Assembly: GCF_001660705.2 (NCBI RefSeq)
Contig: NZ_LYBV02000033.1
Location: 1-64,000 of the forward strand
DNA: 64,000 bases
From: Saccharicrinis aurantiacus
Lineage (GTDB): Bacteria > Bacteroidota > Bacteroidia > Bacteroidales > Marinilabiliaceae
Reading direction: 5' to 3'
Both the position numbers and the translations under genes were made by a program. Numbering within the stretch: position 1 is the first letter of the stretch; each line of letters starts with the position of its first letter. The notes under the pieces were generated by a model. The model made no database searches. It was given only the letters and a program-made list of their open reading frames with translations, and had not been told where the DNA came from. Below are positions 36,356-61,400 of this stretch, one piece after another.

Positions 36356-37357
36356 TTACTGATTTTCTTTATCAAAGGCTGCATCAAATGCCAAATTGGA
36401 TGGCGTAAAATCAACTTGTTTTACAAACGCACACGATTCGGTTGCACCTTGTTCACGATCCATTGCACCATCTTCCCACTCCACAGAAAGTGGTCCTGCA
36501 TAGGCCATTCTGTTTAACTCTCGTATAATTTCTTCGAAATTGATTTTTCCGCGCCCCATACTTCTAAAATCCCAGTAGCGGCCTGCTTCTCCAAAATTTG
36601 TATGTCCGCCAAATACGCCAGCATCAGTTGGAGTATTGCTCCAGGTAACATCTTTCATATGCACATGCACAATTTGCGCAGAAAACTTACTAATGAACTT
36701 CACATAGTCTACACCTTGGTAACCCAAATGACTCGGATCGTAATTAAAGCCAAACGCAGGATGATTACCAATGGCTTTTAAGGCTCTTTCGGCCGATGCA
36801 ATATCAAAAGCAATTTCTGTGGGATGAACCTCTAAACCAAATTTAATTCCCAAGTCATGAAAAGCATTCATTATGGGAGTCCAGCGTTCTGAGAAATCCT
36901 TAAAACCCGCATCTATCATCTCCTGTGAAGCAGGAGGAAAAGAATATAAAAGATGCCAAATAGAGCTTCCGGTAAAACCATTTACAATTTTTACCCCAAG
37001 TCGTTTAGCCGCTTCTGCCGTTTTTATTACCTCGGCAGCCGCTCTTTGTCTAACTCCTTCGGCATCGCCATCGCCCCAAACATAATCGGGCAAAATTGCC
37101 TGATGGCGTTCGTCTATTCTATCACAAACTGCTTGACCAACGAGATGTGTTGATATAGCATATACTTCTAAATTATATTTTTTGAGAATAGCTAGTTTCT
37201 CATCACAATAAGCTTGGTCGGCTTTATCCACTTCAAAGTGATTGCCCCAACAAGCCAGCTCTAAACCGTCGTAACCAAAGGCCTGCGCTTTCTGACAGAC
37301 AATTTCGAAATCTAAATCGGCCCACTGGCCCGTAAATAATGTGACTTTTCTGCTCAT
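36356..37357 (-). CDS. Sugar phosphate isomerase/epimerase (xylose isomerase-like TIM barrel), cytoplasmic
   Basis: 333 residues without an export signal. TIM-barrel motifs of the AP-endonuclease 2 superfamily: [34 protein letters not shown] with a metal-ligand Glu and His, [24 protein letters not shown] and [18 protein letters not shown] with the last metal Glu. Members isomerise or epimerise free or keto sugars and inosose. It is preceded by the hairpin at 37376-37409 and followed by the transporter gene. Confidence 0.88.
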
Positions 37358-37449: not shown

Positions 37450-38853
37450 CTACCACAATTCTTCTCCATAAGACCATCCTTTTCTTACGGGCTCTTTGAT
37501 GTATTTATTTAATTCAGGATGATTTGTTACTTTCATATTGGCAGCATCAAACTCAATTCTTTTATTTGATCGTTGTGCCAATACACCCACTAAAGCCATT
37601 TCTGTTAGGCCTGCGCCATACTCAAATGTGGAACCAGGTTTTGGTCCAACTCCCCTTATGGCATTAATAAATTCTTTATACTGATTTTCTTCAGGGATAC
37701 GGGAGATCGTTTGATTCCAACCTTTTTTCTGGAAGGCCTTCCAATCTTCATTAGGCATAATTATTCGGGCATTATTCGGTCTTCCTCCAGTCATAACCGA
37801 CATTTTTTCGCCCACCATAATCATCCCATTATTTCCTAACTTATGTGTTAACCACTCTGGTCTATTCTCAGGTTTTTTACCACCTTCGTACCATGTTAAT
37901 TTGACCGGAGCTTTATTTCCTCTTTTTTCGAATTGAAATTCTAAGACCGATGAATCTGTAACAATATCGTTTGGCATGCCTTCGTTACGAACAGCATGTA
38001 ATGGCTGTACCACCTTTGGTGAGCCCAATTCTAGTGCCCAATACGGAGCATCTAAGGTATGACAAGCCCAATCGCCTAATTCGGCATTACCCAAGTCGTA
38101 CCAACTTCTCCAACGGCGCGGCACATAACACTCGTTAAATGGTCTCATTGTTTGAGGACCCATCCATAAATCCCAATCTAAACCTGCAGGTACTTGCTGT
38201 GCTTCTGGCGGATAAGTAGCAGGCTTACCAAACCAATTCCCTTGAAAGTCTGGACCATTAAACCAAGCATGTACTTCTTTTACCTCGCCAAGTAAACCTT
38301 GATCGTACCACTCTTTTATATTACGGATACCATTTGAAGCATGTCCCTGGTTACCCAATTGATTAATTACACCATACTTTTTAGCAGCCTTTACCAATGT
38401 GCGTAATTGCCAAATATTATGTGCCAAAGGTTTTTCAACATACACATGTTTTCCCATTTCCATGGCAGCCATGGTTACGGCAAAGTGCGTATGGTCTGGC
38501 GTAGATACAATAACTGCATCAATATCTTTATGCATCTCATCCAACATTACTCTAAAATCCTTGAAGGTTGGCACGTTAGGCATCAACTTACTGGTTTTTG
38601 AGAGCATCTCTTCGCTTACATCACATAGGGCAACAATACGAACCTTTGGGTTTAAAACTCTTTCTTTGGTTTCTTTATTATAAGATTCGCTGATTAGTCC
38701 GTTCCAATTACCTTGTCCTCTTCCGCCAACACCAACAATAGCGATGTTAACAATATCGGTTTTTGAACAACTCACCAAACTGGGAATAATCATTGCCCCG
38801 GCAGCCATGGTACCTGATGTGCGTAAAAAGTTTCTTCTAGATATGTTTTTCAT
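37450..38853 (-). CDS. Exported Gfo/Idh/MocA family oxidoreductase (twin-arginine lipoprotein)
   Basis: 467 residues. Twin-arginine signal ISRRNFLRTSGTMAAG with a lipobox-like LVSC at about residues 25-28, so the folded NAD-bound protein is exported and possibly lipid-anchored. Rossmann motif IAIVGVGGRGQGNW, then GKHVYVEKPLAHNIWQL and the C-terminal domain with LGDWACHTLDAPYWAL. It resembles Bacteroidota oxidoreductases placed next to DUF1080 genes. Exported members are thought to oxidise a hydroxyl of a glycoside with tightly bound NAD. It is 44 bp after the DUF1080 gene. Confidence 0.87.
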   Translation of the reverse strand: MKNISRRNFLRTSGTMAAGAMIIPSLVSCSKTDIVNIAIVGVGGRGQGNWNGLISESYNKETKERVLNPKVRIVALCDVSEEMLSKTSKLMPNVPTFKDFRVMLDEMHKDIDAVIVSTPDHTHFAVTMAAMEMGKHVYVEKPLAHNIWQLRTLVKAAKKYGVINQLGNQGHASNGIRNIKEWYDQGLLGEVKEVHAWFNGPDFQGNWFGKPATYPPEAQQVPAGLDWDLWMGPQTMRPFNECYVPRRWRSWYDLGNAELGDWACHTLDAPYWALELGSPKVVQPLHAVRNEGMPNDIVTDSSVLEFQFEKRGNKAPVKLTWYEGGKKPENRPEWLTHKLGNNGMIMVGEKMSVMTGGRPNNARIIMPNEDWKAFQKKGWNQTISRIPEENQYKEFINAIRGVGPKPGSTFEYGAGLTEMALVGVLAQRSNKRIEFDAANMKVTNHPELNKYIKEPVRKGWSYGEELW

Positions 38854-38897: not shown

Positions 38898-39653
38898 TTA
38901 AAGTTCCCTTATCCAAATATTGCGATAACTCACTTCGTTTGAGTGATCTTGCAAAAACAAAGGAACTTTTGCATCGTGATATTTATAACTTGGATGCCCT
39001 ATGTATTCCGTTGGTCCCTTAAGCTCTACGTGATTCTGGACCAATACGCCATTCAAGAAAACCGTAAGGTATGCTGGGCTCTTTAAAGATTTATCAGCAT
39101 TGAATTTTGGTGCCGTAAAAATGATATCGTAAGCCTGCCATTTCCCTGGTGCAATAGTTGGGTTTACCAAGGGAATATGTTGTTTATAAACACTACCGGC
39201 CATTCCATTATAGTAAGTTTCGTTTTCAAATGAGTTCAACACTTGCACCTCATATCTTCCCATTAAAAAAATACCGCTGTTGCCACAACCTTGTCCTTTT
39301 TTACCAGCTTTCACATCCTTAGTAGGGCTATTCCATTCTATATGTAGTTGGCAATCGCCAAAACTTTGCTTGGTTTCTATGGCGCCACTTTTTGGAACCA
39401 CGGTAAAACTCTTTCCTTTTACTTTCCACGCAGCCGGCATGTCTTTTCCCTTCTTCTGCCACTTATCAAGATTTTTACCATCGAATAGAACAATGGCATC
39501 TGAAGGTGCTTTTGATTTTTTGCCCGGAATAACAGCCTCTGGTTTTCTGCTCCAATCTTCAGTTTCTTGAGGCTTCATTTTATTTTTTTTCTGAGCCACA
39601 GCACTCAGCGTGAAAACGCACAAAAAGATGGATATTAATACTTTATGATTCAT
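38898..39653 (-). CDS. DUF1080 (3-keto-disaccharide hydrolase-like) protein, exported
   Basis: 251 residues. Signal peptide (VLISIFLCVFTLSAVAQ), then a concanavalin-like jelly roll: AIVLFDGKNLDKWQKKG, CGNSGIFLMGRYEVQVLNSF, ETYYNGMAGSVYKQH and VSYRNIWIREL are all hallmarks of DUF1080. Family members cleave 3-keto-glycosides by hydrolysis or beta-elimination in the periplasm after an oxidoreductase has oxidised C3. It starts 2 bp after the isomerase gene and is followed by an exported oxidoreductase, the partner expected for that chemistry. Confidence 0.9.
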   Translation of the reverse strand: MNHKVLISIFLCVFTLSAVAQKKNKMKPQETEDWSRKPEAVIPGKKSKAPSDAIVLFDGKNLDKWQKKGKDMPAAWKVKGKSFTVVPKSGAIETKQSFGDCQLHIEWNSPTKDVKAGKKGQGCGNSGIFLMGRYEVQVLNSFENETYYNGMAGSVYKQHIPLVNPTIAPGKWQAYDIIFTAPKFNADKSLKSPAYLTVFLNGVLVQNHVELKGPTEYIGHPSYKYHDAKVPLFLQDHSNEVSYRNIWIREL

Positions 39654-39655
39654 AG

Positions 39656-40465
39656 CTATTTGATGGATGTATTAAAAAATGAAATATTCTTTTTTAGATC
39701 GGGCATTGGATTTTCCCAATTGTGCTCGTGCTCTATAACCCATTTTCCACTATACTTCTGACGATGCAATTCTGTTGTTACAGCCTTCCAATCGATAATG
39801 CCTTCGCCCCAAACTACGGCATGCCCTTTTTTATCGGTGCGGTTTACATCTTTCATATGAATTTCAAAAACTTTGCCCTCTAATTTCTTTAAACATACTG
39901 CCGCATCAAGTCCTGACCGGGTCCAATGCCCGAGGTCGGTACATGCACCCATATAAGCACTTCTGCCTTCCAAAGCCTTTAGCACAATATCAGGATTCCA
40001 ATACCTTGTTGGGTCAGGGTGGTTATGAATAGCCACTCGTATCTTATATTCTACACATAAGGCATCTATCATTGGTAACAACTCCTGCTTAGGCTCTGAA
40101 ACAATGGTTTTAATGCCCATCTTTTTTGCAAATTCAAAAAGCTTCTTCCAATCTGCTTCCTTATTAGGAGATATAACACCATAACTCTCCACCTTAATTT
40201 TATGCGCCTTAAGCATGGCTTTTAGGTCCTCAATCTGAGAGTCGGGCATCGAAAAGTGAGTAGTTCTATCATCGCTAGCAGAAAACTTTTGCTTGGGATA
40301 AAGTTCAATGTACTTGATGCCTAGCTTTTGCATATCAGCAAGAGTTTCGCTTAGCGTGAAGCGATTAAAAGTCCAAGCCTGAGTGGCTAGTTCCCACTTT
40401 TTTGCATTTGCATTGATGGATACAATCATCATAAATACAGCTAAAATTGATACTACTTTCTTCAT
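39656..40465 (-). CDS. Sugar phosphate isomerase/epimerase-like TIM barrel, exported
   Basis: 269 residues with a signal peptide (VVSILAVFMMIVSINANA), unusual for this cytosolic superfamily but common in this kind of cluster. TIM-barrel motifs: LGIKYIELYPKQKF, VAIHNHPDPTRYWNPD, GACTDLGHWTRSGLD, FEIHMKDVNRTDKKGHAVVWG and GKWVIEHEHNW with metal-binding His/Glu/Asp. It sits 2 bp from both neighbours (ThuA-domain and DUF1080 genes), so it is tightly coupled. Probable role: epimerising, isomerising or eliminating a keto-glycoside in the periplasm. Confidence 0.87.
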   Translation of the reverse strand: MKKVVSILAVFMMIVSINANAKKWELATQAWTFNRFTLSETLADMQKLGIKYIELYPKQKFSASDDRTTHFSMPDSQIEDLKAMLKAHKIKVESYGVISPNKEADWKKLFEFAKKMGIKTIVSEPKQELLPMIDALCVEYKIRVAIHNHPDPTRYWNPDIVLKALEGRSAYMGACTDLGHWTRSGLDAAVCLKKLEGKVFEIHMKDVNRTDKKGHAVVWGEGIIDWKAVTTELHRQKYSGKWVIEHEHNWENPMPDLKKNISFFNTSIK

Positions 40466-40467
40466 AA

Positions 40468-41685
40468 TTAATTTTTAGCGCTTAAGCGAGAAATTGCGAA
40501 CTGAGCCATTTCATTGGTTAATACATCGTTTTCTAAGTCTTTTAAGGCTGAAATACAATTTTCAGAACCCATCCAACTTAACTCTCTGCACAAGTAATTT
40601 TTAGCATCCGCTGTTGCTTGTTCATCATTTAATAATTGGATTATCTTATCCTCTATTTTTGCTAACTCACGAGGATTGTCACTATATTTTTTGATTCTTT
40701 CCGATATTAAATTGAGATACTTTACCGACTCGCCCACTTTATATTTAGATGCATTTCGGAACAAGTCGTTTATCGTAAATGCCTTATAATTTGGCAATAT
40801 TAGAGGAGTAACCGAGTTTGGCATATCCTCTGGCAAAGCTTGAGTAACTTCTCCTGTGGCAGCCCATTCTGTACCTCTTAATAAAGTGTAAACAAAAAAT
40901 GCACTTTTAAAGGCTACTGTATTCGAGTCTTTACCCACATGGCCAAATACATTGTGAAACACCCTACCTTTACCATAATTTATGGTAAATAATACGGGTT
41001 CGTGATAACCTGTACCTCCTGTTTTCTTAGGCGAAAAAGCAGTAGCCAATACTTCCATATTTTCAGCTGGCCCTCTTAATTTCGCGTATAACTCATCGTA
41101 TGCGTGCATGCATTTTGCAGGGATACCTTTCATTATAGGATGTTCGGGCATACGGTTATCAACAACAAATTGATCTTTTTTTCCGTGCATTCCACCTTTT
41201 CCGGGAGAATTATCTCTTACTACCTCCCCATTTTGCCAACGCACATAAGGGCCATCCTTTTCGTTACGTTTGCCCCATCCGCCAAGACCAATAATTTTAT
41301 TATACTCTTCCCACTCAGGAAAACTATTGTCTGCAGCATGTATTACAACAACACCTCCACCATTGCTTACAAATTTTTCAAAGTTGCTTTGTGTTTCTTG
41401 TGGCCAATTATCGCCGTTATAATCGAGCAATACCACATCGTATAAAGTAAAATCAGGTTTAAACCCCGACATATCCTCTCCCTTGTTTGGAGTAATAGCT
41501 ACATCAACAGTAAAGAGCTCCGAAGTTTCGAGTGTTTTTTGAAGTGCCACATGCGAAGCCTTCCAGTTATGATTATTTTGCCCTGTAATTATTAATACGT
41601 TCTGCTGCTTTTTGCCACAAGAAGCTAAGCTAACGACAAGCACCAAAAATGCTAATTGTATAATGGTTTTTATAGATTGAATCAT
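40468..41685 (-). CDS. ThuA-domain lipoprotein with C-terminal helical extension
   Basis: 405 residues. Lipoprotein signal (LAFLVLVVSLASCGKK, Cys about 23). The ThuA domain, a class-I glutamine-amidotransferase-like fold, covers about 30-275: VLIITGQNNHNWKASHVAL, GGGVVVIHAADNSFPEW and GRVFHNVFGHVGKDS. ThuA is tied to trehalose utilisation through 3-keto sugars in rhizobia. The last 100 residues (LFRNASKYKVGESVKYLNLI; AKNYLCRELSWMGSENCISALKD) are HEAT-like helices. It starts 46 bp after the Gfo gene. Confidence 0.85.
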   Translation of the reverse strand: MIQSIKTIIQLAFLVLVVSLASCGKKQQNVLIITGQNNHNWKASHVALQKTLETSELFTVDVAITPNKGEDMSGFKPDFTLYDVVLLDYNGDNWPQETQSNFEKFVSNGGGVVVIHAADNSFPEWEEYNKIIGLGGWGKRNEKDGPYVRWQNGEVVRDNSPGKGGMHGKKDQFVVDNRMPEHPIMKGIPAKCMHAYDELYAKLRGPAENMEVLATAFSPKKTGGTGYHEPVLFTINYGKGRVFHNVFGHVGKDSNTVAFKSAFFVYTLLRGTEWAATGEVTQALPEDMPNSVTPLILPNYKAFTINDLFRNASKYKVGESVKYLNLISERIKKYSDNPRELAKIEDKIIQLLNDEQATADAKNYLCRELSWMGSENCISALKDLENDVLTNEMAQFAISRLSAKN

Positions 41686-41731: not shown

Positions 41732-43078
41732 CTATTGTGGCAATTGCCAAGGAGATCTGAACGGTCGGCTTAACAAACGATTGGCTTGTTCGCTATTGGT
41801 AAAACGCTCTGTATTGCCATCCCACAATAATTTTTGATTAGTAAGCATGGCTATTTCTCCCAATAAACCAACACTAATAGAGTTGTGTGCCACATGTGCA
41901 GGCGTGATGGTTTCTTTACTCGATTTTACACAGTCAATAAAGTTTTCCATATGGTTACCACTAAAGTAAACCGGCTCTTTAATCAAACTTTCAGGTGTAT
42001 CAAGGATATCTTGGCTACTTGCCCACAAACCACTTCTGTCAACATGTATCCAACCTTTTTCGCCATACCAAACGGTACCCATTCCTCCACGTTTATTTTT
42101 TGCATCGGTGCCTTTGCCTCTGCGATTTGAATAAGCACTTGCATTAGCCACACGCATATTTACTCCAGTATCATATTTACAAGTAAAATCGTATTCAACA
42201 GGTACATTATAAATTCCTTCTATTGGATAAACACCCTTGCCTTCAACCTCTATAGGAGATTTGTTATCGTAACCTAGTCCCCAATGTGCAATGTCAACAT
42301 GATGCCCTGCCCAATCGGTTAACTGTCCTCCTGAATAATCCATAATCCAACGCCAGTTAAAATGCATTACGCCACGAAATGGCACTTTAGGAGCGGGCCC
42401 TAGCCACATATCCCAATTTACACCTTCGGGTGGAGATTGAATTGCCGGGGTACCAATAGGTTTGCGTCCATCGGGCAAGCCAACTTCTACGTGAGTAACT
42501 TCACCAATCACACCGTTTCTGACCAAATTAACAGCTGTACGGAAGTTTTTTATAGATCGCTGCCAACTACCTGTTTGCCAAATAATATTATTAGCGTTAA
42601 CAGAATCAACAATGGCTCTACCTTCGCTTATTGTGCGAGCCAAAGGCTTTTCTCCATAAATATGAATGCCTTTATTGGCTACATTGCAGGCAATTATTGA
42701 GTGCCAATGATCAGGCAAAGCCAATATTGCAGCATCTAATTTTTCGTTATCTAATAGTTGTCTGAAATCTTCGTATTCACGAGCCTCACTTTTTCCGCGC
42801 GACTCAATAATTAGTTTTTGCGATCGCTCAATTTGTTTTTTATCAACATCGCAAAGTGCCACTAGCTCAACGGCTTTATTTCGAAGTGCATTTTTCATAT
42901 TTCCGCGACCCATACCTCCAGAACCCACTAGGGCCATTTCGATACGATTACTCGGTGCTACAAAACCATTTTTACCCATGGCTGAAGCTGGAATAATAGA
43001 TGGAAACACAGTAGCCCCAACTAGGGCGGCTGCACTTTTCTTTAAAAAGCTTCTTCTACTATTAGATTTTTCACTCAT
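41732..43078 (-). CDS. Exported Gfo/Idh/MocA family oxidoreductase (twin-arginine signal)
   Basis: 448 residues. Twin-arginine signal NSRRSFLKKSAAALVGA, with no lipobox. Rossmann motif MALVGSGGMGRGNM, then GIHIYGEKPLARTISEGRAI and the C-terminal domain with DYSGGQLTDWAGHHVDIAHW. The opening of the catalytic domain is close to that of Bacteroidota glycoside dehydrogenase-like members. It lies 39 bp after the related gene at 43118 and shares the same exported location. The two are clearly different in sequence (VFP and LSSC ends, different loops), so they probably act on different substrates or steps. Confidence 0.87.
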   Translation of the reverse strand: MSEKSNSRRSFLKKSAAALVGATVFPSIIPASAMGKNGFVAPSNRIEMALVGSGGMGRGNMKNALRNKAVELVALCDVDKKQIERSQKLIIESRGKSEAREYEDFRQLLDNEKLDAAILALPDHWHSIIACNVANKGIHIYGEKPLARTISEGRAIVDSVNANNIIWQTGSWQRSIKNFRTAVNLVRNGVIGEVTHVEVGLPDGRKPIGTPAIQSPPEGVNWDMWLGPAPKVPFRGVMHFNWRWIMDYSGGQLTDWAGHHVDIAHWGLGYDNKSPIEVEGKGVYPIEGIYNVPVEYDFTCKYDTGVNMRVANASAYSNRRGKGTDAKNKRGGMGTVWYGEKGWIHVDRSGLWASSQDILDTPESLIKEPVYFSGNHMENFIDCVKSSKETITPAHVAHNSISVGLLGEIAMLTNQKLLWDGNTERFTNSEQANRLLSRPFRSPWQLPQ

Positions 43079-43117: not shown

Positions 43118-44461
43118 TTATGACTTAATTGCGGTTCCTGGAATTGGAACTGGAAACTCCATATCAATATCTCCCATATGATATTCTGTTGGGCCAAGAC
43201 GCAATTTTGATTTACTGATTTCTTCCCAGGTAATTTTTTTCCCGGTATAAGCAGATTCACGAGCCATTATCGCCGTAAGGTTAGACATGGCAGTTTGCTC
43301 AGCTTCGTTTACATATTCGTTGGTTCGAATAGCCGTAACCAAATGAATATGCTCTTGTATGTAAGGAGATATTTTAACTACGTTAGTTGATTTACCATCT
43401 TTATCTTTAGGGTACTCATAAGTCCATTTTACGCTTCCATCCGGATTATAAATGGTGTTTTTACAGTTAGTATAACCTTTAGTTCCAACAACTAGCTCAC
43501 CAGTTCCATTGGCACAATTATCTATTTGACGGCTCATACTATGGGAGAATAAACCGTTGCCATAATCAAAATCGATACTGAAGAAATCGTATTGATCGCC
43601 CGTTACTCTGCGGTGTCTTCCGCCATAACCAACCGCACTAAGCGGCGTTTTACCAGTAAACCAATTAACCACATCAATATTATGCACATGGGTATCGAGG
43701 ATATGATCGCCACACAACCAACAGAAATTATTCCAATTACGCATCATATATTGCATATCGGTCCATCCCTCTTGGCGTTTACGAAACCATACGTGCTCTT
43801 GGTTCCAAAATGCCTTTGCACTAACAATATCACCTATAGCTCCGTTGGCTACTTGTTTGTAAGTTTCGATATAATCGCGCTGATGACGACGCTGTGTACC
43901 CGTTACCACATTTAATCCTTTTACCTTGGCTTTTTTTCCAGTGGCGACCACAGAACGTATCCCCACAGGATCAACAGCCACTGGTTTCTCTAGGAAACAA
44001 TGTTTGTTTTTTTCTACCGCTAACTTAAAATGCTCAGGTCTGAAATGCGGAGGCGTTACCAATAAAACCACATCCACATCAGTGTCCATCAATTTTTTAT
44101 AGGCATCAAAACCCACAAAGCAATTTTCATCCGGCACATTAATCTTATATTTCTTCAAACGATCTTTACATGCTTCTACTTTATCTTCAAAAACATCCGC
44201 TAAGGCGCCTACTTCAACACCTGGCCCAGTACTTAAAAAATTAAGTAAAGCTCCGGTACCTCTATGTCCGCAACCTACCAAACCCGCTTTTAGCTTTTTA
44301 CCTTTAGGTGCTCTATTTAAAAGAGGAGGTAAACCCAACTCTTCGTGTGATTTTTTATTTGCACAAGATGATAAAAGCGAACTGACACCAATTGCGCCAA
44401 TAGTTGTAGCTACTGTTGATTTCTTTAAAAAACTTCTTCTTGAGACCTCTTTCTTTGCCAT
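43118..44461 (-). CDS. Exported Gfo/Idh/MocA family oxidoreductase (twin-arginine lipoprotein)
   Basis: 447 residues. Twin-arginine signal VSRRSFLKKSTVATTIG and a lipobox-like LLSSC at about residues 29-33. Rossmann motif LKAGLVGCGHRGTGALLNF, then KNKHCFLEKPVAVDPVGIRS and the C-terminal domain with CGDHILDTHVHNIDVVNWF. It is the first oxidoreductase gene after the cytochrome-SUMF1 gene, with a gap of 36 bp. This subgroup is common beside sugar isomerases in Bacteroidota and Planctomycetota. Confidence 0.87.
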   Translation of the reverse strand: MAKKEVSRRSFLKKSTVATTIGAIGVSSLLSSCANKKSHEELGLPPLLNRAPKGKKLKAGLVGCGHRGTGALLNFLSTGPGVEVGALADVFEDKVEACKDRLKKYKINVPDENCFVGFDAYKKLMDTDVDVVLLVTPPHFRPEHFKLAVEKNKHCFLEKPVAVDPVGIRSVVATGKKAKVKGLNVVTGTQRRHQRDYIETYKQVANGAIGDIVSAKAFWNQEHVWFRKRQEGWTDMQYMMRNWNNFCWLCGDHILDTHVHNIDVVNWFTGKTPLSAVGYGGRHRRVTGDQYDFFSIDFDYGNGLFSHSMSRQIDNCANGTGELVVGTKGYTNCKNTIYNPDGSVKWTYEYPKDKDGKSTNVVKISPYIQEHIHLVTAIRTNEYVNEAEQTAMSNLTAIMARESAYTGKKITWEEISKSKLRLGPTEYHMGDIDMEFPVPIPGTAIKS

Positions 44462-44497: not shown

Positions 44498-46033
44498 TTA
44501 CTCTGGTAAATTATCCTCTACTTCGCAAACTACGCGGAAGCCAACATCAATACAGTCGGAATACCACCAAATACTTTTAGGCATCTGCGGATCGGTTTGC
44601 AACCACTTTTTAGTTTCAGTTGATCTACGAGCCGCAGCACGTAAATCGCTTGCATCTGATTTAAATGAACCCCCACGTATTACATGTTCGCGCCCTTTAG
44701 CAGGACCTGTAGGATTCTCTAAAACTTTTTCTTTGTACAATCCATAAGCTTGTGGGTGATAATAATCTGAGCAGAACTCATACACATTACCTAACATATT
44801 CTTCAATCCAAATGGATTTGCAATTACAGAAGATGGCTCATTGGTTTTGCCATTACTGTTACCATCGAAAATAGTGTACGACGCAATTGTTGCTGTATCG
44901 ACTCCAAATATTTTATTCCATGTACTTTTCTTAGAATAATCTGATGGATTACCATCGAAGAAATAAGCTGACTGTGAACCCGCACGAGCAGCATACTCCC
45001 ACTCTGCTTCAGTTGGCAATCTGTATTTTTTACCCGTTACCTGCGATAACCACTTACAGTAAACCTCTGCTGCATGAAAACTCATAGTTATAGCTGGGCG
45101 TTGACCTTTCCCCCAACCTTGATCGGGCGCACCCCAAGGTGGAGTGGCTCCTGAAATAGCATCAACCTCATCTGATTTTACTTCGCTTACTTTAACCGAC
45201 TCTTTGCGACCTTCAGAAGCTGTAGCGTTGAAGAAGGCTAAATATTCGTCCCACGTTACCTCAACTTTAGCCATAAAAAAACGCTTCATTTTCACTTTAC
45301 GAGCAGGGCCTTCATTACCTTGTCGGTAATCTTCTTTTTTAGGACTACCCATAATAAACTCTCCTTCCGGGATGGCAACCATATCAAAAGCTACCGTACT
45401 TCCCGGAATGGTTTCTTTAAAGTTTTTGAATTTAGTGATCTCAGCAGCTTTAGTAAATACTTCCTTCTCGCTTTCATCAGCAGCAAAGTTTACATTATGC
45501 GCATGTATTGCATCGGCACTGAAGTGTCCCGTATGCATATGGCAATTTAAACAAGTAAGTTCTTCTTTATTTGACTCGTAATATAAATGAGAATCTTCGC
45601 CCTTAACCGAAAGCCCTGATGGGAATAAATTAGAATGACAGTTTAAACAAGATTCTTCGTAGGTAAATTCATTTGCTTTGGCTACAGTTCTTTTCCCTTC
45701 CCAATTAAAATCAGCTGAATCTTTAAACATGATGCCATACACATCTTTTAAACCATGCTTTGTTTTGGCCCATAACCTACCATGTCCTTCGGGAGGTAAA
45801 TGGCAATCGACACAATTTACAATTACACCAGATTCATTATTCACATGACCAGATAAGCGCCAAGATTCTTCGGCATGATCATGAACATGGCACGAAAAAC
45901 AATATTCGTTAGTTGAAGTATAATCTACTACAGTTCCTCCTAAATGACGCGCTATAAAAGCAACGAGGAAACCGAAGATAAAGATGACATAATATTTCTG
46001 GAAAAAAGATTTAATCCAAGTTTTACTTTTCAT
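44498..46033 (-). CDS. Tetraheme NapC/NrfH-like cytochrome c fused to a SUMF1/FGE-like domain
   Basis: 511 residues. One N-terminal membrane anchor (YVIFIFGFLVAFIARHLGG) is followed by four CxxCH haem sites in about 130 residues (YCFSCHVHD, NCVDCHLPP, SCLNCHSNL, TCLNCHMHT), as in quinol-oxidising NapC/NrfH. From about residue 210 to the end is an FGE-sulfatase domain: IPEGEFIMGSPKKED, EVTWDEYLAFFNA, KYRLPTEAEWEYAARAG, NMLGNVYEFCSDYYHP and HVIRGGSFKSD...VGFRVVCE. The two Cys used by true formylglycine-generating enzymes at RGGS-x-C/C are replaced (FKSDASDL), so sulfatase activation is unlikely. It heads the oxidoreductase operon. I infer electron transfer between quinone pool and periplasmic sugar oxidation. 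Confidence 0.85.
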   Translation of the reverse strand: MKSKTWIKSFFQKYYVIFIFGFLVAFIARHLGGTVVDYTSTNEYCFSCHVHDHAEESWRLSGHVNNESGVIVNCVDCHLPPEGHGRLWAKTKHGLKDVYGIMFKDSADFNWEGKRTVAKANEFTYEESCLNCHSNLFPSGLSVKGEDSHLYYESNKEELTCLNCHMHTGHFSADAIHAHNVNFAADESEKEVFTKAAEITKFKNFKETIPGSTVAFDMVAIPEGEFIMGSPKKEDYRQGNEGPARKVKMKRFFMAKVEVTWDEYLAFFNATASEGRKESVKVSEVKSDEVDAISGATPPWGAPDQGWGKGQRPAITMSFHAAEVYCKWLSQVTGKKYRLPTEAEWEYAARAGSQSAYFFDGNPSDYSKKSTWNKIFGVDTATIASYTIFDGNSNGKTNEPSSVIANPFGLKNMLGNVYEFCSDYYHPQAYGLYKEKVLENPTGPAKGREHVIRGGSFKSDASDLRAAARRSTETKKWLQTDPQMPKSIWWYSDCIDVGFRVVCEVEDNLPE

Positions 46034-46375
46034 TAGTGTTCAAATTTTCTGGTTGTTTAATTTGAGCACTATAATAAGCCTAGGACATTATTGAGTGATT
46101 AAAAATCTATTTTTTACGACTTAACTCCATATTAATTTCACATTAATCCATGCGATAAACCCCCTGTTAAACTGCAACTTATAAGAAGTATGAAAAAGTG
46201 TAATTATTTTTAAGGATTATTCACACTTAGTTATATTAATACCAAATTAATATCAGTATTACAGATGCAGGATATGCTCCTGATAGGATTCCATCATACA
46301 TCAAATGAGGAAATAATTAAATGAAAACTTTTAAACGATATAAAATAATTCCCGCTTAAGCGGAAATAGAAAAGA
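46034..46375. promoter_or_regulatory. Upstream region of the cytochrome-oxidoreductase operon
   Basis: 342 bp without a plausible gene. Close to the start codon AGTGTTCAAATT (46035-46046) pairs with AATTTGAGCACT (46059-46070), 11 of 12. Further up AAGTGTAAT (46196-46204) faces ATTCACACTT (46219-46228). Both contain the core AGTG/CACT, so they could be regulator sites or leader hairpins. No TAnnTTTG box is visible, which would fit an activator-dependent promoter. Confidence 0.5.
46352..46363 (-). terminator. Palindrome after the SARP-like regulator gene
   Basis: CCGCTTAAGCGG is a perfect 12-bp palindrome lying 13 bp after the stop codon at 46376, followed on the minus strand by AT-rich sequence (AATTATTTTA). 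It is a weak intrinsic terminator candidate or a binding site. Confidence 0.5.
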
Positions 46376-48904
46376 TTAGGAAACTAAACTTTTATAAGAT
46401 ATGGGAAGGTCTTCGTTATAAACCTCAGAATAACGTTCGGAGAATGATTTGAAAAGGAAACGGGCTTCATTTACCTGATGCATCTCTAACAGCGCTTTTA
46501 CTTTGTATTTTAGCGCCTCCTCATTTAGGTCGTCAACAATTAATACTCTATCGGCTATTTTAATAACCAGGTCAGGATTTTGATCTAAGGTAAATTCGGA
46601 TAACAAGCGCACCAATACATCAATAATTTTATTAGAATAAGCTCCTTTTACCTCATCAAACAAGGCATCTTTACTATCGAATAGAAATGCGCCACGGTGC
46701 ACAATACTCAAAAATCGATTGAGTTTAAGGTGATCGCTGAATAAGTTAGATTTTCTATAATTTAAACTCTCGTAATAATCACAATACACATTTTCCGACA
46801 ATTCTATTCGCCATCTTTCCTGATGATTTATGATGGTAATCTCATCAAGTTGATTTAGTAACCCTCGTAACTTACTAATGGAAACCCCTCTATTGTTAAT
46901 GGCTTTTTTTCGAACGAACCCGGTCCAAACTTCAGCAATGAAATCTTCTGAACTCACCCCGTGTGACTCATTTTTACTCTTCAGTAATAGATAAATGAAA
47001 ATTTGTTTCAAGCGAGGCGTAAAACTATTGGTGATATCCAAACCATTTTTATTTATCACTCTAAACTCGCCAAATAATGAAATTGAATTATTCTCTTGAA
47101 GTTCTTCATCAATTAATAAAAAAGAAGGCTCTGTAGACTTCTTGTTTTCAGGAGTCTTTTTTACTCGTCGTGTAATAAATATCAATAACAAAACAACTGT
47201 CAAAATACTGCCAAAAACCACTCCATACTTTTTAAGAAAAAAAGTGAAACTACTTTCTGGCATTAACGATACGCCTTGATAAAGATTCCATATTTCATTT
47301 TCTCCAAGAGCTCTATTCCAAATAATAATATCATCTAAACTTCCCTCAAACAGTTGATCTTTACTAATAGAGCGTCCGATAAACAAATTAGACTTACTTA
47401 CAAAAGGAGGATGATTAAGAGATGCCCCATCTAATTTGCCATTCACGTAAATGGCTTGTTCTTGATTGTATTTATTATAGCGCCATACAATATGATACCA
47501 TCGGTTAGCACACAGATTGGTTGTTCCTGAAACATCGTTTGAGAAAAAACCAAAATAGGGTTTATTGTTTCTGATTTGAAGGTGTAGTCCTCCTCTGTAA
47601 TAATTTTCTTTAGTACCCATTACAGAGAAATCGCGTTGCTTTTCGTCTGTATTTCTGGCCAATTTAACCCATGCACTTATGGTAAAGTCAGAATTTGATA
47701 TGCCAAGCGTACTTGCCTCGGGTAAGGTAACATAGGCGCTCCCATCAAACTGAAGTACATTATTTCTCTTGTTATCGACTTTTAGCTCTGCCCCGTTATT
47801 TATTACTTTATACTTATTATTGCTTTCATCTGAAATGGATTCCGTAAACGGGAAATAAGCTACTAAACCCTCTTGAATATCTACGGGAATAGCAATAAAG
47901 TTTTGTACAATATCTTTAGATATACTTTCTATCTCTATCTTTTCAGGAACAAATCTGAATCCCATTGCACTAGGTTCTAGAACAATCTCTTCATTTTTTA
48001 CGGCCGGAAAACAAAAGTTGCCATTGGTAACGGCATTGAAATTGCCTTCCCAAAAAACTCTAGTAAGAGGTTCGCGATTATACGAAATAGTTCCTGTTAT
48101 ATTTTTTTGGTTACCAAAACGATGCTTTAAGCCCTTTATATGACCACGGCTTCTGCTAAAGACAATGAAATTAACTTTTTTGCCGGTGTTTTTCCAGATA
48201 TTAATTCCGTGCGAAACAAAAAAGGGATCTCTATTGGTATCAAGGTAATTTAACGAAGAGGTGTATTGGGTATAGTTATCAATAAATAGTAGCTTATTTT
48301 TGATATCTCCCCTACAAAACTCACCATTAATCTTAGGCTGAATATCTGACGAATAGCAAGGCTGAACCCCATAATCCCAAAAATTTTTGAGCATGGGATT
48401 TTCTGAAATTTGATTTAAACTAAAACAAACTAACTGATTATAACCTAACAATAGAGTTTCAATAGTAGGCCATTCTTTTGATGGAAGATCCTTCCATATA
48501 TAACGATAACACTCTTGCTGCTGCAAGAAATCAATTAATATTTGAGTATTAAAACTGTAATCGAAAAATATGGTAAATACAGTTTTAGAATTCTGCTTAC
48601 AAATTTGATCTAGTTGTTTGCAAACAATGGAAAGATCCTTTCCGCTTCCCCCTGAATTTTGAACTTCAATTGAAGTACTATCTTCATTTAAGGCAAGTTT
48701 AAAAATAAATCCATCAGCTCCACCCTCTACTAGACTTTCAATACTCTTAAATTTATTTTGAGATCCGAACGCATAATCACAAATTAAATTAATTTGCTCA
48801 TCATATCGCTTATTAACCCCATACGATTGCGCATACGAAACACTTTGTACAAAAATACAAAATAGTATAACAATAGGAATACAGTATGAACGATAGGGAG
48901 ACAT
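46376..48904 (-). CDS. Membrane-spanning regulator: PLC-like and LamG sensor, SARP-like winged helix plus BTAD output
   Basis: 842 residues. Signal peptide (1-25); an extracytoplasmic domain at about 30-240 with a pattern recalling PI-PLC-like barrels (GGADGFIFKLALNED, WPTIETLLLGYNQLVCF), assignment tentative; a LamG/concanavalin domain at about 345-545 (GLVAYFPFTESISDES, FTISAWVKLARN, YHIVWRYNKYNQEQAIYVNG, LDDIIIWNRALGENEI); one membrane helix at about 560-580 (YGVVFGSILTVVLLLIFIT); then a cytoplasmic winged helix at about 608-710 (ISLFGEFRVINKNGLDIT, FTPRLKQIFIYLLL, SSEDFIAEVW, GVSISKLRGLL) and a TPR-like BTAD (LNEEALKYKVKALLEMHQVN). The last two match the SARP activator layout. It sits between the SusCD operon and the cytochrome-oxidoreductase operon, so either may be its target. 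Confidence 0.78.
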   Translation of the reverse strand: MSPYRSYCIPIVILFCIFVQSVSYAQSYGVNKRYDEQINLICDYAFGSQNKFKSIESLVEGGADGFIFKLALNEDSTSIEVQNSGGSGKDLSIVCKQLDQICKQNSKTVFTIFFDYSFNTQILIDFLQQQECYRYIWKDLPSKEWPTIETLLLGYNQLVCFSLNQISENPMLKNFWDYGVQPCYSSDIQPKINGEFCRGDIKNKLLFIDNYTQYTSSLNYLDTNRDPFFVSHGINIWKNTGKKVNFIVFSRSRGHIKGLKHRFGNQKNITGTISYNREPLTRVFWEGNFNAVTNGNFCFPAVKNEEIVLEPSAMGFRFVPEKIEIESISKDIVQNFIAIPVDIQEGLVAYFPFTESISDESNNKYKVINNGAELKVDNKRNNVLQFDGSAYVTLPEASTLGISNSDFTISAWVKLARNTDEKQRDFSVMGTKENYYRGGLHLQIRNNKPYFGFFSNDVSGTTNLCANRWYHIVWRYNKYNQEQAIYVNGKLDGASLNHPPFVSKSNLFIGRSISKDQLFEGSLDDIIIWNRALGENEIWNLYQGVSLMPESSFTFFLKKYGVVFGSILTVVLLLIFITRRVKKTPENKKSTEPSFLLIDEELQENNSISLFGEFRVINKNGLDITNSFTPRLKQIFIYLLLKSKNESHGVSSEDFIAEVWTGFVRKKAINNRGVSISKLRGLLNQLDEITIINHQERWRIELSENVYCDYYESLNYRKSNLFSDHLKLNRFLSIVHRGAFLFDSKDALFDEVKGAYSNKIIDVLVRLLSEFTLDQNPDLVIKIADRVLIVDDLNEEALKYKVKALLEMHQVNEARFLFKSFSERYSEVYNEDLPISYKSLVS

Positions 48905-55420: not shown

Positions 55421-58400
55421 CTATTGTTTTGTAAACTTTTTAGTTACTGAAGTATTGTCTCCTGACAACTCAAGCATATAAATTCCAGTTGTAAGCTTTG
55501 ATACATCTATCGTAGCAGATGCTCCCGTTTTTCCGAGAATTCCATTTTTAATAGTTTCACCACTAACCGATAAAATACGATAATGTATTTCCTGAGTTGC
55601 AATAACGCTTGACGAAATATTAATAACATCTATTACAGGATTTGGATAAATACTAATTTCTTCTTTATCTAAATCCTCTACTCCAACACGAGTACTAATA
55701 TGTACTATAGTTTCTGTTATTAATTTTGCTGAGTGTGGATCAACAGCAGTTATTAACAACTCTGTATTTCCAATTGATTGTGGTTTAATAATTAATTGGT
55801 TATCACTATAGAATAATTCTATCACATCGTTATTCTTAGTTACTGTATATACCAATTCCTCCATATCAGGATCGCTTATATACTCCCTTAAATCAATTGT
55901 GTAAGATAAGTTTCTATCATAACGGTAAACCATATCAAACTCTTTAATCAGCTCTGGTGCACGATTAACATTATTCACCTTAACTATAAAGGTATAAGTA
56001 CTCATCAAACCTTTTGAATCTGTACCATTTACCACAACTCTGTGAATACCGGCACTAAAGAAATCAGGAGTAAACTGAAGTTCCATATTTCCGTCAACAA
56101 AATTGCCTTTAACAAAAGAATAATCTTCAGCTAATTCTAAGGTATAATCAAGGCCTCCCTTATGCGATGCATATAAAACAAAATCAACCGTATCATTCTC
56201 ATGCAGCTCAATTACAAAATTTTGATCAATACCATATGAAGGACCATTATTTTTAATAAGCTCTGCCGATATACGAGTAAGCTTACTATTTGGATCATTA
56301 GAGTTGATAAATATCCTAGCCTTATTTGAAGTATTAAATACTCTAGAGGCATACATAGTTAAATCAAGATCAAGTGTTTCACCAGCTTTAACTGTACCAC
56401 TTGTTAATGATGGCACCAACCAAATTGGTGAAATTTTATCGGTTTCAATAGCTTTCACCATCCAACCAACATTACGAACACCTAATTCAGTAACCAAACG
56501 GTAGGCAATACCTGTTGACCCAAAGAAATTACCCTCTTCATCCTCTGAATTAATTTCGCCTAATGCACAAGGAGAAATCATTTCCTTAGAATAGACAATA
56601 CGGATAAAGAATGATTCTCCACCTTGTATCATAACAGGCGTATCTAGATCAACCATTTCTTTAACAACTTGATTGTTATACAATGGCGTATCGTAACTAT
56701 AATTTACGCGTTGACTATATATCAAACCTGTTTTTAAGAACTCATCGTCACCCGCAAATACTTGTACCGTATAATATCCCTCAAGTGTATTACGATATGT
56801 GTAATAATGCTCTAACTGGTTAAAACAGAATCCATCTTCAGGTGCTACTAGGTGAGTTACTGTGTGTACATCAACCTCATCGCTACCCCAACCAAAAGTA
56901 TGGAGTACTTTATCCGACAGTAGCTGAGTAATTACTCGTGACGACTTAGCAGCCTTTAATGATTTTGACTTAACCTTATTAACATCTGCAATTATAGGCT
57001 CTATACTATTTGACTCTGCAGTATATGGCACAAAACTATCCGTTGAGTATTCGTCGGCAGCAGTAGTAATATAATTATACTCAAAATTGATATCTAAAGT
57101 GAAGTTTAGGTCACTTTCACCCTCTTCATTGCTAATAGTAAATTGCTCATTTCCTATAAACGAATCATCAGGAGCGTAAGCTGTTATATCGGTTTTGTCA
57201 ATACCTATAGATGGGGCAGGTATAACATTTGTAGTTACTACCATTTTATGTTTATACTCGTCTGCAACTTGATCCTCGGTTAAATTATACCAAGTCATAT
57301 AGTCCATATCTTTTACAGCTTCGTATTCAACAAAAGTAAATTCGGTAAGTAATTCCCTCGTTTCGGTAGGTTTTTTATATAAACCAACTCTAGTCTGAAG
57401 TATACCTTCAGCAGGAACAGTAATAAAACTACCTTGATTTATTGCATTAGATGCATCAAACCATCCCCATGACTCAAAACCTGGTATTCTACCCGAGAAT
57501 ACATAAAGATTCATTTTATGATCATAATCAGCAGGAATTATAACTTTACCAAGTTTTAGATCTTTACGTCCTTTATTTTCTATGTTTAAATAATATACAT
57601 ATGATTCATCTTTTGGCGATTCAAAAGACACATATTCTGTTTCATCCTCAGCTAATTCTGTAACATAAACATTCCCCATATCGAGAGTTTCTGGTATATC
57701 TACCTGAATATCGCCATCAACAAATAGGTTAAAATCTACATTATATAAACCATTATTAACGGTATTGTTGATAACTGTAACAGTTTCAGTATACTCTCCT
57801 GCATAAAGATGTGTAGCATCAACAACGAAATTGTGAGTTGCACTTGCTCCTGCTGTTAAAGTATTTTTCTTATATGGGTAAAATTCAATAGCTGTATTCG
57901 CATCAACAAACATTGAATTAAAGGAGATAATTTCGCCTTCTGTTCCATCTTCATTTTCAATACCAATAGCAGATAAACTAGGAACCAATGAAATTTCACT
58001 TTCATTTAAATCGAAGTTATACTGGAATTTTATTGAGCCATCTTTTCGCAAAAACACTTGCCATGACATAGGGCCAGGTGACATTCCCAGTCCATCAGTA
58101 AACGATTGATATTGTACAACTACCATGTCTTCAAACTCCTGGTAGTAAATACCTGCATTTTTATCGTTATGTAGGTCGTTATAATTAAAGCCAAACATTG
58201 GGGCTATTATATTATTAGGACCATCTTCAGAAGGTACTCGAATTCCTCCTCTAGGGTATGCCTCTGTTTGTTCTGTAAATGATAGTACACCACAGTAACC
58301 TACATACAACATATTATAATCGTTACCATAATAGTTGAAATCCCATGGCAATTCTACTTCATTCCAGAAATTATCATAGTTGGTTAGATCCATAGACTCC

Positions 58401-61400
58401 AATTTTGTACCAGTTTCTACAATATCTATCCACTCGTAAGCAATCGTAGGAGTCAGTTTCTTTTTAAACGATTGGTATTGATAATCTTTTAAATCAGTAC
58501 CTGACTTTAAGACTGACTGCTGCTCGTGCACAACCGCAGTACCCTTTATACCATATTCTAAATCACTTGCTCCGGTATTTGTTATTGTGAAGCTAGCGGC
58601 ATCTTTAGTACCCGACCAAAGGTTAACATCAATACTTGAATTATCGCTAGAAATTAAAGGTGCTGATATTATATTACTAATTAAACTGATTAGCGTTTCT
58701 TCAGTATCATTAATAGTAACCTTCAATTGAGCTGCGTTTCTTTGTACTTTATCTGTTTTAGCCCTGATAGTAAAAAGCTCAATAGTCTCGGGCGATAATT
58801 CGTATGGGAAAGTACGGTCAGTAATAATTTCAAAGGCATCGGCATTATTACCTAACAATTCAATATTAGATATTATACCAGAGGCTCTACCGTCATTTCT
58901 AACTACTAAACTCTGAGTTAATTGTGATAAATGATAAGCATCACCAAAATTAAAGGCTTCAGAACCTACCGTGATATCAGCCTCGCCACCTTCTGTTACA
59001 TTAATAGTTGCTTTGAAATTAACAAATGGCTTAGTAGGCTCATTTGTTAGTATTGGTAAGTACTCAATATAACTTTGCTCGTTAAGCTCGTCTGTTATTA
59101 AGCTATACTCAAGCTCAATAGAATCACCGGCTAATACAATTCCAGATGGGTTTGTAAGCGAATTAAATAATCCTAAACCTGGATTAATAAACTTAATATT
59201 TGTACCCTGCTGAATATTAGCGTCAATTACAGTTATTTGATTAGCAATAATTGCATCATCTTTTTCGATATCGTGCGCCCAAACTGCCCAAAATTTAGAG
59301 TTTGTAAATCCATCTAAATTATTATAACGGATTTCGATATTTCCATCCTTATGAAGTACCGCCTGAAAGGTAAGTTTATGTTGAATGAATTTTAGTGTTT
59401 CTTCATCGAGACTACCCATTGGGAAATCTTGATACTGAACTACAAAATGATCTCCAAAATCTTGGTAAAAAATCTTACTTTCAATATTCGGATCAAAAGC
59501 AAATGGCTCTCCTATAAACGAGATAGCTCGGGAAGGACTTGTGTCATCATTAGGTGCCATTGGGAAGGTACTGTATGTACCGTCTTCGGTAAATGCAATT
59601 AAACCAAATGGAGTGATGTAAGCTTTACGTTCTACTTTACCAAAAAATGGAAAACCAAAATTTAACTCAACCTCGTGTGTCCATTTCATTTCAACCCTAT
59701 TGGCTATATCAGGCACCTCCATTCCTGTTTCGGAAATATCTTCCCAAGGTCCATAACTTTCTTTCTCACTAAAGTACCCGAATTTACTTACATTGGTTTC
59801 ACTTTCAATAAAATCACTTGGTTTATCAGCAAATTTAGGCGTGTAATAATGTAAAGGATAATCCCCTTCATTTTTTAAAATAAAGGATCCTGTTAATACA
59901 TCTCCGATGGCAACACTATCGTAAACAAGCTCTTGAGGATCTACTACACATACTGGTGGATTTACCGCATAACCTGTTACTTTAATCGTAAACTCTTCGT
60001 CGCCTCGATTATTATAAAAAGTAATATAATCGTTAAATGCTCCTTCATTTTTAGGTTCATACCCAAGACTGAAATAGACAGAAGATAAAGCATCTACGGT
60101 TCCTGGAGACCTATAAGCACCTGAACTTCCATTTACTAAAATTTCTTTAGACGATAAACCTGTTTTATTTCTATCAAGTACGAAATCACCTAAGCCTGAA
60201 TTTGTAATATATGCCTGTACATTTTTCTCAGTACCAATTATTACTCTACCAAAATCAATTAGGTTGGTTCCTTCTACATTTGCCTCTTGACCTTCTACCA
60301 CAGTTTGCATTCTGTAGCTAAGCATTTCATTATTGTGGTCGTTGGTTACAGTATTGATATCAAAACTGTAAGTACCATTAATAATATTAGTTACATCTAT
60401 ATCGTAGCTTACAGTTTCGATATTTACACCAGCGTCTTCATCGGAGTATATACGCCCTTCTGATTTAGGCATTGTAACAAAGGTATTACCTGCTGATAAA
60501 TAACTCATGGCCTCAACCATAAATGCAAAACCTTCTATATAAATATCAGCTAATGGTTGCCACGATTCTCCGCGATTACTGCTATAAAAACAGTTCTCTT
60601 TGCCATAACCATCTTCCTCCTCAAAAGCAATTACTAAAGGATATTTATGTCCTGTTGGAGGATGTAAAACTACCCAAAAGTAAGCTCCTGGCTCAAAATG
60701 AAATTGAGAGTTTAATTCGTGCCTTACTGTTTGATCAATAGTATTAGTTGTAAGAGCCTGACGATGACGTAAACTCGCTGTAGCAATATCTCGGCCCTCA
60801 AATATTTCTACTATAATTTCTTCGCCCTGATTAAGTTCTACGTTAAAGCGGGCAGCTATATGTGTTAAATTAAAACCATTAGCACCAACTCCGTCTACCT
60901 CTGGCAGAACTCGGTATCGTGTAGCTGAAGAACTTGGATTTTCAGGATAAGCCTCTCCTATATAATAAAATGAAGATGCGTTAGTATACCCTTTAAATAA
61001 AGTAGTGTCAGCATGCTGATTATATTCTTTTAATGTTTGGTAAGGAGATGCCTCATATACTTGCGCCCCAGTCGATGCACTATAATTAGTAGCATTGCTT
61101 AATCCTGGTAAAGGTGCACTCCAATTATTTTGATTTGATAGATCAATATTCGTTTTCCAATTTAAAATACCTTCACCTTCATTATACAGATAAAATTCAC
61201 CGCTTGCAGTAGTACTTGTAGTCGCATTAATGGTATGATTAACATATGGGTATTTACCAATAGATGCCGTATCTGTTGCATGAAAAACCAGCTTAGCAAT
61301 AGGACCAGCTGTTGTTTGCTCACTAACAAGGTTTGAAATAAGTGATTTATTACCCCACTTATCTGTAGACTCTATAGCAATATAATATTTCGTTAATGGC

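Follow-up and report, generated by a model that had tools for sequence, protein, structure and literature searches.

A membrane-anchored SARP-type regulator and an 11-bp repeat array as candidate control elements of a NapC-FGE operon in Bacteroidota

The question raised by this locus is whether a single membrane protein, with a sensor on the outside and a DNA-binding part at its other end, could control a neighbouring set of sugar-oxidation genes. A sequence-only reading of the window (i.e., the whole stretch of 64,000 nucleotides that was analysed) had described a transmembrane one-component protein with SARP-type output, and this description is supported by the predicted fold, by linkage to sugar-oxidation genes, and by a SARP-like operator. 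In our assessment, the protein (P0001) is likely a membrane-anchored one-component SARP-type activator of the NapC-FGE operon (Table 1), with binding, activation, and ligand being inferred.

Table 1. Positions of the regulator, its parts, the operator-like array, and the neighbouring genes within the window
Feature	Coordinates	Strand	Basis
Regulator gene, 842 aa (P0001)	46376..48904	minus	ORF; module kept in relatives
Signal peptide, residues 1-26	48827..48904	minus	By reading; helix 4-28 in model
Head, residues 30-345: PLC-like TIM-barrel-like region, then beta-sandwich	47870..48817	minus	Model; weak profile support
LamG domain, residues 387-538	47291..47746	minus	Pfam PF13385 (Laminin_G_3), E 3.1e-25
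Membrane helix, residues 552-580, basic residues after	47165..47251	minus	Sequence and model
Predicted OmpR-type winged helix, residues 607-702	46799..47086	minus	Models; EmbR/AfsR match
Predicted BTAD-like helical domain, residues 709-841	46382..46780	minus	Models; EmbR/AfsR match over whole module
Operator-like array, six 11-bp units	46081..46146	minus	Period tests
Candidate -7 box TATTATAG	46069..46076	minus	15 bp from last core start; 4/6 matches to TAnnTTTG
First target gene (candidate): NapC/NirT cytochrome fused to FGE-like domain	44498..46033	minus	Pfam
GFO/IDH/MocA oxidoreductase	43118..44461	minus	Pfam
GFO/IDH/MocA oxidoreductase	41732..43078	minus	Pfam
ThuA-domain protein	40468..41685	minus	Pfam
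Xylose-isomerase-like TIM barrel	39656..40465	minus	Pfam
3-keto-disaccharide hydrolase domain (PF06439, DUF1080)	38898..39653	minus	Pfam
GFO/IDH-like gene	37450-38853	minus	By reading, without Pfam; operon membership not shown
Isomerase-like gene	36356-37357	minus	By reading, without Pfam; operon membership not shown
MFS-like gene	35007-36329	minus	By reading, without Pfam; operon membership not shown

The open reading frame claimed for the regulator was borne out exactly and lies on the minus strand, which the earlier reading had not named; the domain order that it gave, i.e., signal peptide, head, LamG, single membrane helix, winged helix, and BTAD-like helices, was confirmed. In the computed architecture (ColabFold full model, 36 sequences; mean pLDDT 85, pTM 0.57), the signal helix is followed by an alpha/beta head, a beta-sandwich, LamG, the membrane helix, the winged helix, and a helical domain reaching to the end. 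LamG was the sole domain of P0001 passing the Pfam search. The topology is inferred, by reading: a cytoplasmic C-terminus fits the run of basic residues behind the membrane helix.

The term “PLC-like” for the head retained only weak sequence support, as an MTC6 TIM-barrel model matched 10 of 31 heads (best 9.8e-6) and PI-PLC-X a single one (E 0.16), and neither matched the head of P0001 itself in the profile search. A PDB profile search with this head returned nothing significant (best E 0.065). No His, Asp, Glu, or Arg was invariant across the 31 heads compared, with His203 being nearly so; an enzymatic head is hence unsupported by invariant residues, though not excluded. Foldseek with the full model was swamped by the LamG fold, with clostridial toxin binding domains and the arabinanase AbnA in the top rows; these matches represent a shared lectin-like fold and say nothing about toxicity. 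Carbohydrate sensing by the head is an inference.

For the output module, fold and sequence profiles were evaluated separately. The module alone (residues 598-842, 35 sequences) was modelled with a mean pLDDT of 91 and a pTM of 0.81, and Foldseek against the PDB returned six chains at E<=0.001, all of them EmbR or AfsR, whose matches span the entire module (TMq 0.70-0.72); the next match had an E-value of 0.24, and the CadC DNA-binding domain was a weak fold match (E 0.68). The cytoplasmic part is thus predicted as a winged helix plus BTAD fold like EmbR/AfsR, as had been anticipated from the sequence. Profile searches for the same two domains gave a divided result: relatives matched BTAD and Trans_reg_C weakly, whereas P0001 had no Pfam match to either at E<=10, a negative that is qualified by the HMMER filters, which drop most matches above about 0.1. 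Among 34 relatives, BTAD was matched in six (best 0.037) and Trans_reg_C in five (best 1.7e-4) at E<=1, the NCBIfam AfsR model matched three (best E 0.016) with P0001 lacking a curated pass, and a PDB profile search with the cytoplasmic module yielded weak TPR matches only (best E 0.011). Because every PDB chain passing E<=0.001 was one of EmbR or AfsR, matched over the whole module, the modelled assignment as winged helix plus BTAD is well supported, though sequence profiles barely see either domain.

The genome itself (5.88 Mb) contains four copies of the module, and the module was found at the C-terminus of ORFs in 23 of 100 relatives (E<=0.001), which together exclude a chance occurrence. 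Across the phylum, 18 of 392 genomes matched at E<=1e-8; 13 of these matches were strong (own genome included) and five lay merely near 1e-9 to 1e-10. Most module-bearing proteins are 680-890 aa long. Six ORFs are shorter, at 272-659 aa (L103, L068, L155, L069, L157, and L092); one of them lies at a contig end, and the others may be truncated, interrupted, or true stand-alone modules. Above the module, three head types were encountered, i.e., PLC-like+LamG, Kelch-type (the commonest Kelch model matching 14 of 34 members), and double LamG. In a tree of 78 modules, built without second copies and without L092, which lies at a contig end, the window protein falls within a clade of 30 rows (support 100/99). 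Every one of the 28 loci in which NapC-FGE is one of the four nearest downstream genes belongs to this clade, the remaining two rows being L072 and L103. The nearest named relative is Labilibacter marinus, with 64% identity across the module. Two loci of the same head type, L047 (contig 23 of the own genome) and L102, are divergent from a GH63/trehalase-type gene, which is followed by sulfatase-like ORFs (by reading), and in L047 TTAA repeats at 11 bp occupy the gap shared with the divergent gene.

The linkage was computed for 42 loci with PLC-like+LamG heads, window included. In 26 of them, the next gene downstream on the same strand was NapC-FGE, which was present anywhere downstream in the stretch in 28, and a GFO/IDH-like gene was among the first four downstream in 32. 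SusC/D genes were located within five genes in 5/42 loci only. Of the two neighbours that the sequence-only reading had linked to the regulator, the sugar-oxidation genes hence stood, whereas the SusCD neighbourhood is local and is ruled out as a conserved partner; SusC/D detection was home-made, and some may be missed. The candidate first target combines a NapC/NirT-type multihaem cytochrome and an FGE-sulfatase-type domain in one protein, and 30 of 100 relatives have a homologue of it at E<=1e-60. The NapC-FGE operon likely represents a 3-ketoglycoside pathway, an inference drawn because the DUF1080 hydrolase family has been tied to ketosugar use (PMC9007349). Elsewhere in the window (55421-63190, minus strand), a secreted subtilase-like protein of 2589 aa was identified by reading; some of its domains are repeated, and its C-terminal tail resembles a type IX secretion signal.

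Repeated TTAA cores were first seen by aligning the gaps between regulator and NapC-FGE. The discovery set comprised 26 non-redundant gaps out of 34, as eight (L035, L037-L043) were second copies of named genomes and were dropped. A run of four cores scoring at least 14/16 was present in 20/26 gaps at a period of 11 bp and in 0-2 gaps at each other period from 7 to 22, with Markov-resampled sequence giving a mean of 0.21 and at most 1. Since the TTAA core had been picked by eye from the same 26 gaps, the test was repeated motif-free (five units x four columns, at least 18/20), which yielded 17/26 gaps at period 11 and 0 or 1 at others. Arrays of five to seven units were found in 22 gaps (that of L073 being poor) and arrays of two to four units in L074, L077, L079, and L083. 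By counting, the spacing in five loci of Prolixibacteraceae (L082, L085, L086, L090, and L097) is 12 bp between the first and second cores and 11 bp thereafter. The cores in the window start at 46146, 46135, 46124, 46113 (degenerate), 46102, and 46091, and across the 5.88-Mb genome this is the only site with their exact four-core pattern; allowing up to one mismatch, there were nine genome matches (exact one included) versus three for the reversed pattern. In L093 (12875-13119) the array precedes a displaced NapC-FGE gene, i.e., it moved with the gene, and in L072 (7727-8085) it separates the regulator from another oxidoreductase gene. Judged on the DNA sequence, for which no binding data exist, the TTAA-type array is probably the operator for P0001.

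The geometry towards the promoter was computed for the same gaps. In 15 of the 26 discovery-set gaps, a TAnnTTTG sequence (at least 5/6) begins exactly 15 bp past the first base of the last core, with none at offsets 8-14 or 16-25 and 0-2 at offsets 26-39; in independent loci, the -7 offset had no significance. Alignment of 22 promoters on their boxes (at least 4/6 at +15, +26, or +37) revealed a common phased row of TAA cores. For SARPs, the published spacing (PMC10936776) is 11 or 22 bp between repeats and 8 bp between the 3′ repeat and the -10 element, and if the repeat is taken as seven bases, 15 bp from the core start corresponds to this 8-bp spacing. The geometry is what bears on the possibility that P0001 binds the array yet represses the operon until ligand release. 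Array position and regulator linkage alone leave the sign of regulation undetermined, but in 15 of the 26 gaps the repeats stop at a constant distance of 15 bp before the -7 box, which is the geometry of a SARP activator (PMC10936776), and a TTTG 18-29 bp upstream of the box was present in only 1 of the 22 aligned promoters. A missing -33 box need not imply activator dependence, since none was identified in Flavobacterium johnsoniae either (PMC7366714). Taken together, repression is considered unlikely. The activator model has points against it as well, i.e., the -7 candidate of the window reaches 4/6 only, the fourth unit of its array is degenerate, and four of the 26 arrays have fewer than five units.

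The array tracks the regulator and not the target gene, because a period-11 score of at least 16/20 was obtained upstream of 9/10 NapC-FGE genes with an adjoining regulator versus 0/20 without. At a score of at least 15, the computed dependence on regulator presence was 10/10 versus 1/20, with scores of 15-19 of 20 where a module lies within about 1.5 kb (n = 10) and 9-15 where it does not (n = 20). All ten regulator-linked loci belong to the discovery set, and the 20 loci without regulator are a new control; for five of these the match is limited to the N-terminal two thirds of the query, and for two the upstream sequence is shorter than 110 bp. For this comparison, 32 matches were listed, of which 30 had loci, and second copies in G022 and G016 were left out.

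Outside the discovery set, 46 loci were available. Pairs of TTAA[CT] 11 bp apart adjoined the regulator in 16 of them (against a mean of 2.0 and a maximum of 6 in 200 resamplings), and pairs at 11 or 12 bp in 19 (against a resampled mean of 3.9 and a maximum of 9); in the remaining 27, a pair was found at neither distance. This set includes L072 and L093, both from the NapC-FGE clade, and the near-identical L163 and L164, both counted. L081, whose regulator is separated from NapC-FGE by two genes, and L099, in which 11- and 12-bp pairs are present, stand outside both the 26 and the 46, and L048 was dropped as the same locus as L099. Among same-order relatives with other heads, five-unit TTAA arrays with an 11-bp period were detected in 4/39 adjacent gaps, whereas each remaining period between 8 and 15 gave 0-1. 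None of the 24 adjacent gaps in the distant phylum set contained such an array, and the motif-free test on this set peaked at period 12 instead of 11 under three of its four settings. A slight surplus of pairs 11 bp apart (27, versus 17 at the next most frequent distance) was also seen in non-adjacent gaps of the order set, which counts against the model; some of these pairs come from arrays close to SusC or to other genes located on the same stretches. In L157, a 272-codon ORF (10258-11073, plus strand) that is almost the SARP module alone lies behind a full-length family member, and the gap between both ORFs contains four TTAA-type cores 12 bp apart with a TAGATTTA box at +15.

These comparisons also address whether the array serves another transcription factor, with P0001 controlling other genes such as the upstream SusCD run. 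In the window, a SusC-SusD-314 aa-DUF4625 run does precede the regulator by 175 bp on the same strand, and SusC-like ORFs occur in the stretches of some paralogues (e.g., L051, L054, L062, L067, and L156), but the rarity of SusC/D among the 42 loci, the absence of the array (at a score of at least 16/20) upstream of NapC-FGE homologues without adjoining regulator, and the 11-bp repeats that other-head paralogues likewise have beside themselves make this reading still less likely than repression. That the module is vestigial or serves protein interaction without binding DNA, as its weak sequence similarity to curated DNA-binding families might suggest, is highly improbable given an intact fold, a matching operator, and a winged-helix helix among the best conserved stretches (N670, N671, R672, G673, and V674 invariant in 12 sequences).

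Several known systems resemble the proposed activator in part. It shares with the SARPs AfsR, EmbR, and PimR a winged helix followed by a BTAD, with the same predicted fold, and direct repeats 11 bp apart (PMC10936776 and PMC5930380), the last of which is equally far from the downstream box in 15 of the 26 discovery-set gaps. Arrays here often have five to seven repeats, whereas operators of PimR have two or three (PMC5930380). SARPs are soluble actinobacterial activators of antibiotic genes; in contrast, the P0001 module forms the C-terminal end of a membrane protein that carries an outer sensor, it occurs in Bacteroidota beside catabolic genes, and sequence models barely match its family. 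As curated models failed and both topology and phylum differ, P0001 is better named a “membrane-anchored SARP-type regulator” than a SARP proper.

SusR-like regulators, which we take to be the DUF6377 family, have cytoplasmic parts unrelated to that of P0001 (hhalign probability 0.2%), and P0001 has no Pfam match to DUF6377; under this assumption, the unrelated cytoplasmic profiles rule out SusR membership. The own genome (G000) has four separate DUF6377 matches on contigs 5, 9, 12, and 14, besides its four SARP-type copies. Likeness to SusR is confined to the overall plan of a membrane protein with outer sensor, cytoplasmic DNA-binding end, and control of glycan genes, and the sites predicted for SusR consist of repeats separated by 67 or 77 bp (both from PMC3878776). 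The same paper describes the hybrid two-component systems of Bacteroidetes as combining sensor and DNA-binding output in one polypeptide, as P0001 would. Such an identity is ruled out for P0001 by the absence of histidine kinase and receiver domains in the Pfam search, and none appears in the domain order of the model. ToxR/CadC-type membrane regulators carry a membrane-anchored winged helix with an outer sensor; in P0001 the order is reversed, with the sensor first and the DNA-binding part last, and a BTAD is added.

For P0001 as activator, the following course of events is proposed. The outer head (PLC-like barrel, beta-sandwich, and LamG) would sense a periplasmic signal, which is inferred and probably a glycan or an oxidised sugar, and one helix would link it to the cytoplasmic SARP module, whose winged helix and BTAD are predicted with high model confidence. 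On signal, several protomers may align side by side on the direct repeats, which are 11 bp or one helix turn apart; DNA binding and this assembly on the array are inferred, while the putative sites themselves, with their end 15 bp before the -7 box, are seen in the DNA. Bound protomers would then recruit RNA polymerase as AfsR does, an inferred step like activation itself, and the adjacent NapC-FGE/GFO-IDH/3-ketoglycoside operon would be turned on.

For the family as a whole, we lean towards a picture of Bacteroidota “membrane SARPs” with one module, interchangeable heads (PLC-like+LamG, Kelch, and double LamG), and, next to their own targets, TTAA(CC)-type repeats with a phasing of 11-12 bp, along which up to six or seven tethered protomers would be arranged on one DNA face at the inner membrane. 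In the literature, in which subscription journals were poorly covered, no title or abstract describing membrane SARPs or such Bacteroidetes regulators was found, and “membrane” and “Bacteroid” are both absent from the main text of a SARP review (PMC10972967). Three Bacteroidetes-specific kinds of glycan regulators are distinguished in PMC3878776, i.e., SusR-like, hybrid two-component, and ECF sigma/anti-sigma, and membrane SARP-type regulators, if the picture is true, would be a fourth. SARP biology would then extend out of Actinobacteria and onto the membrane. With an operator that is readable in the sequence, targets of uncharacterised sensors would become predictable, and the periplasmic ketosugar/cytochrome operon would gain a named candidate controller.
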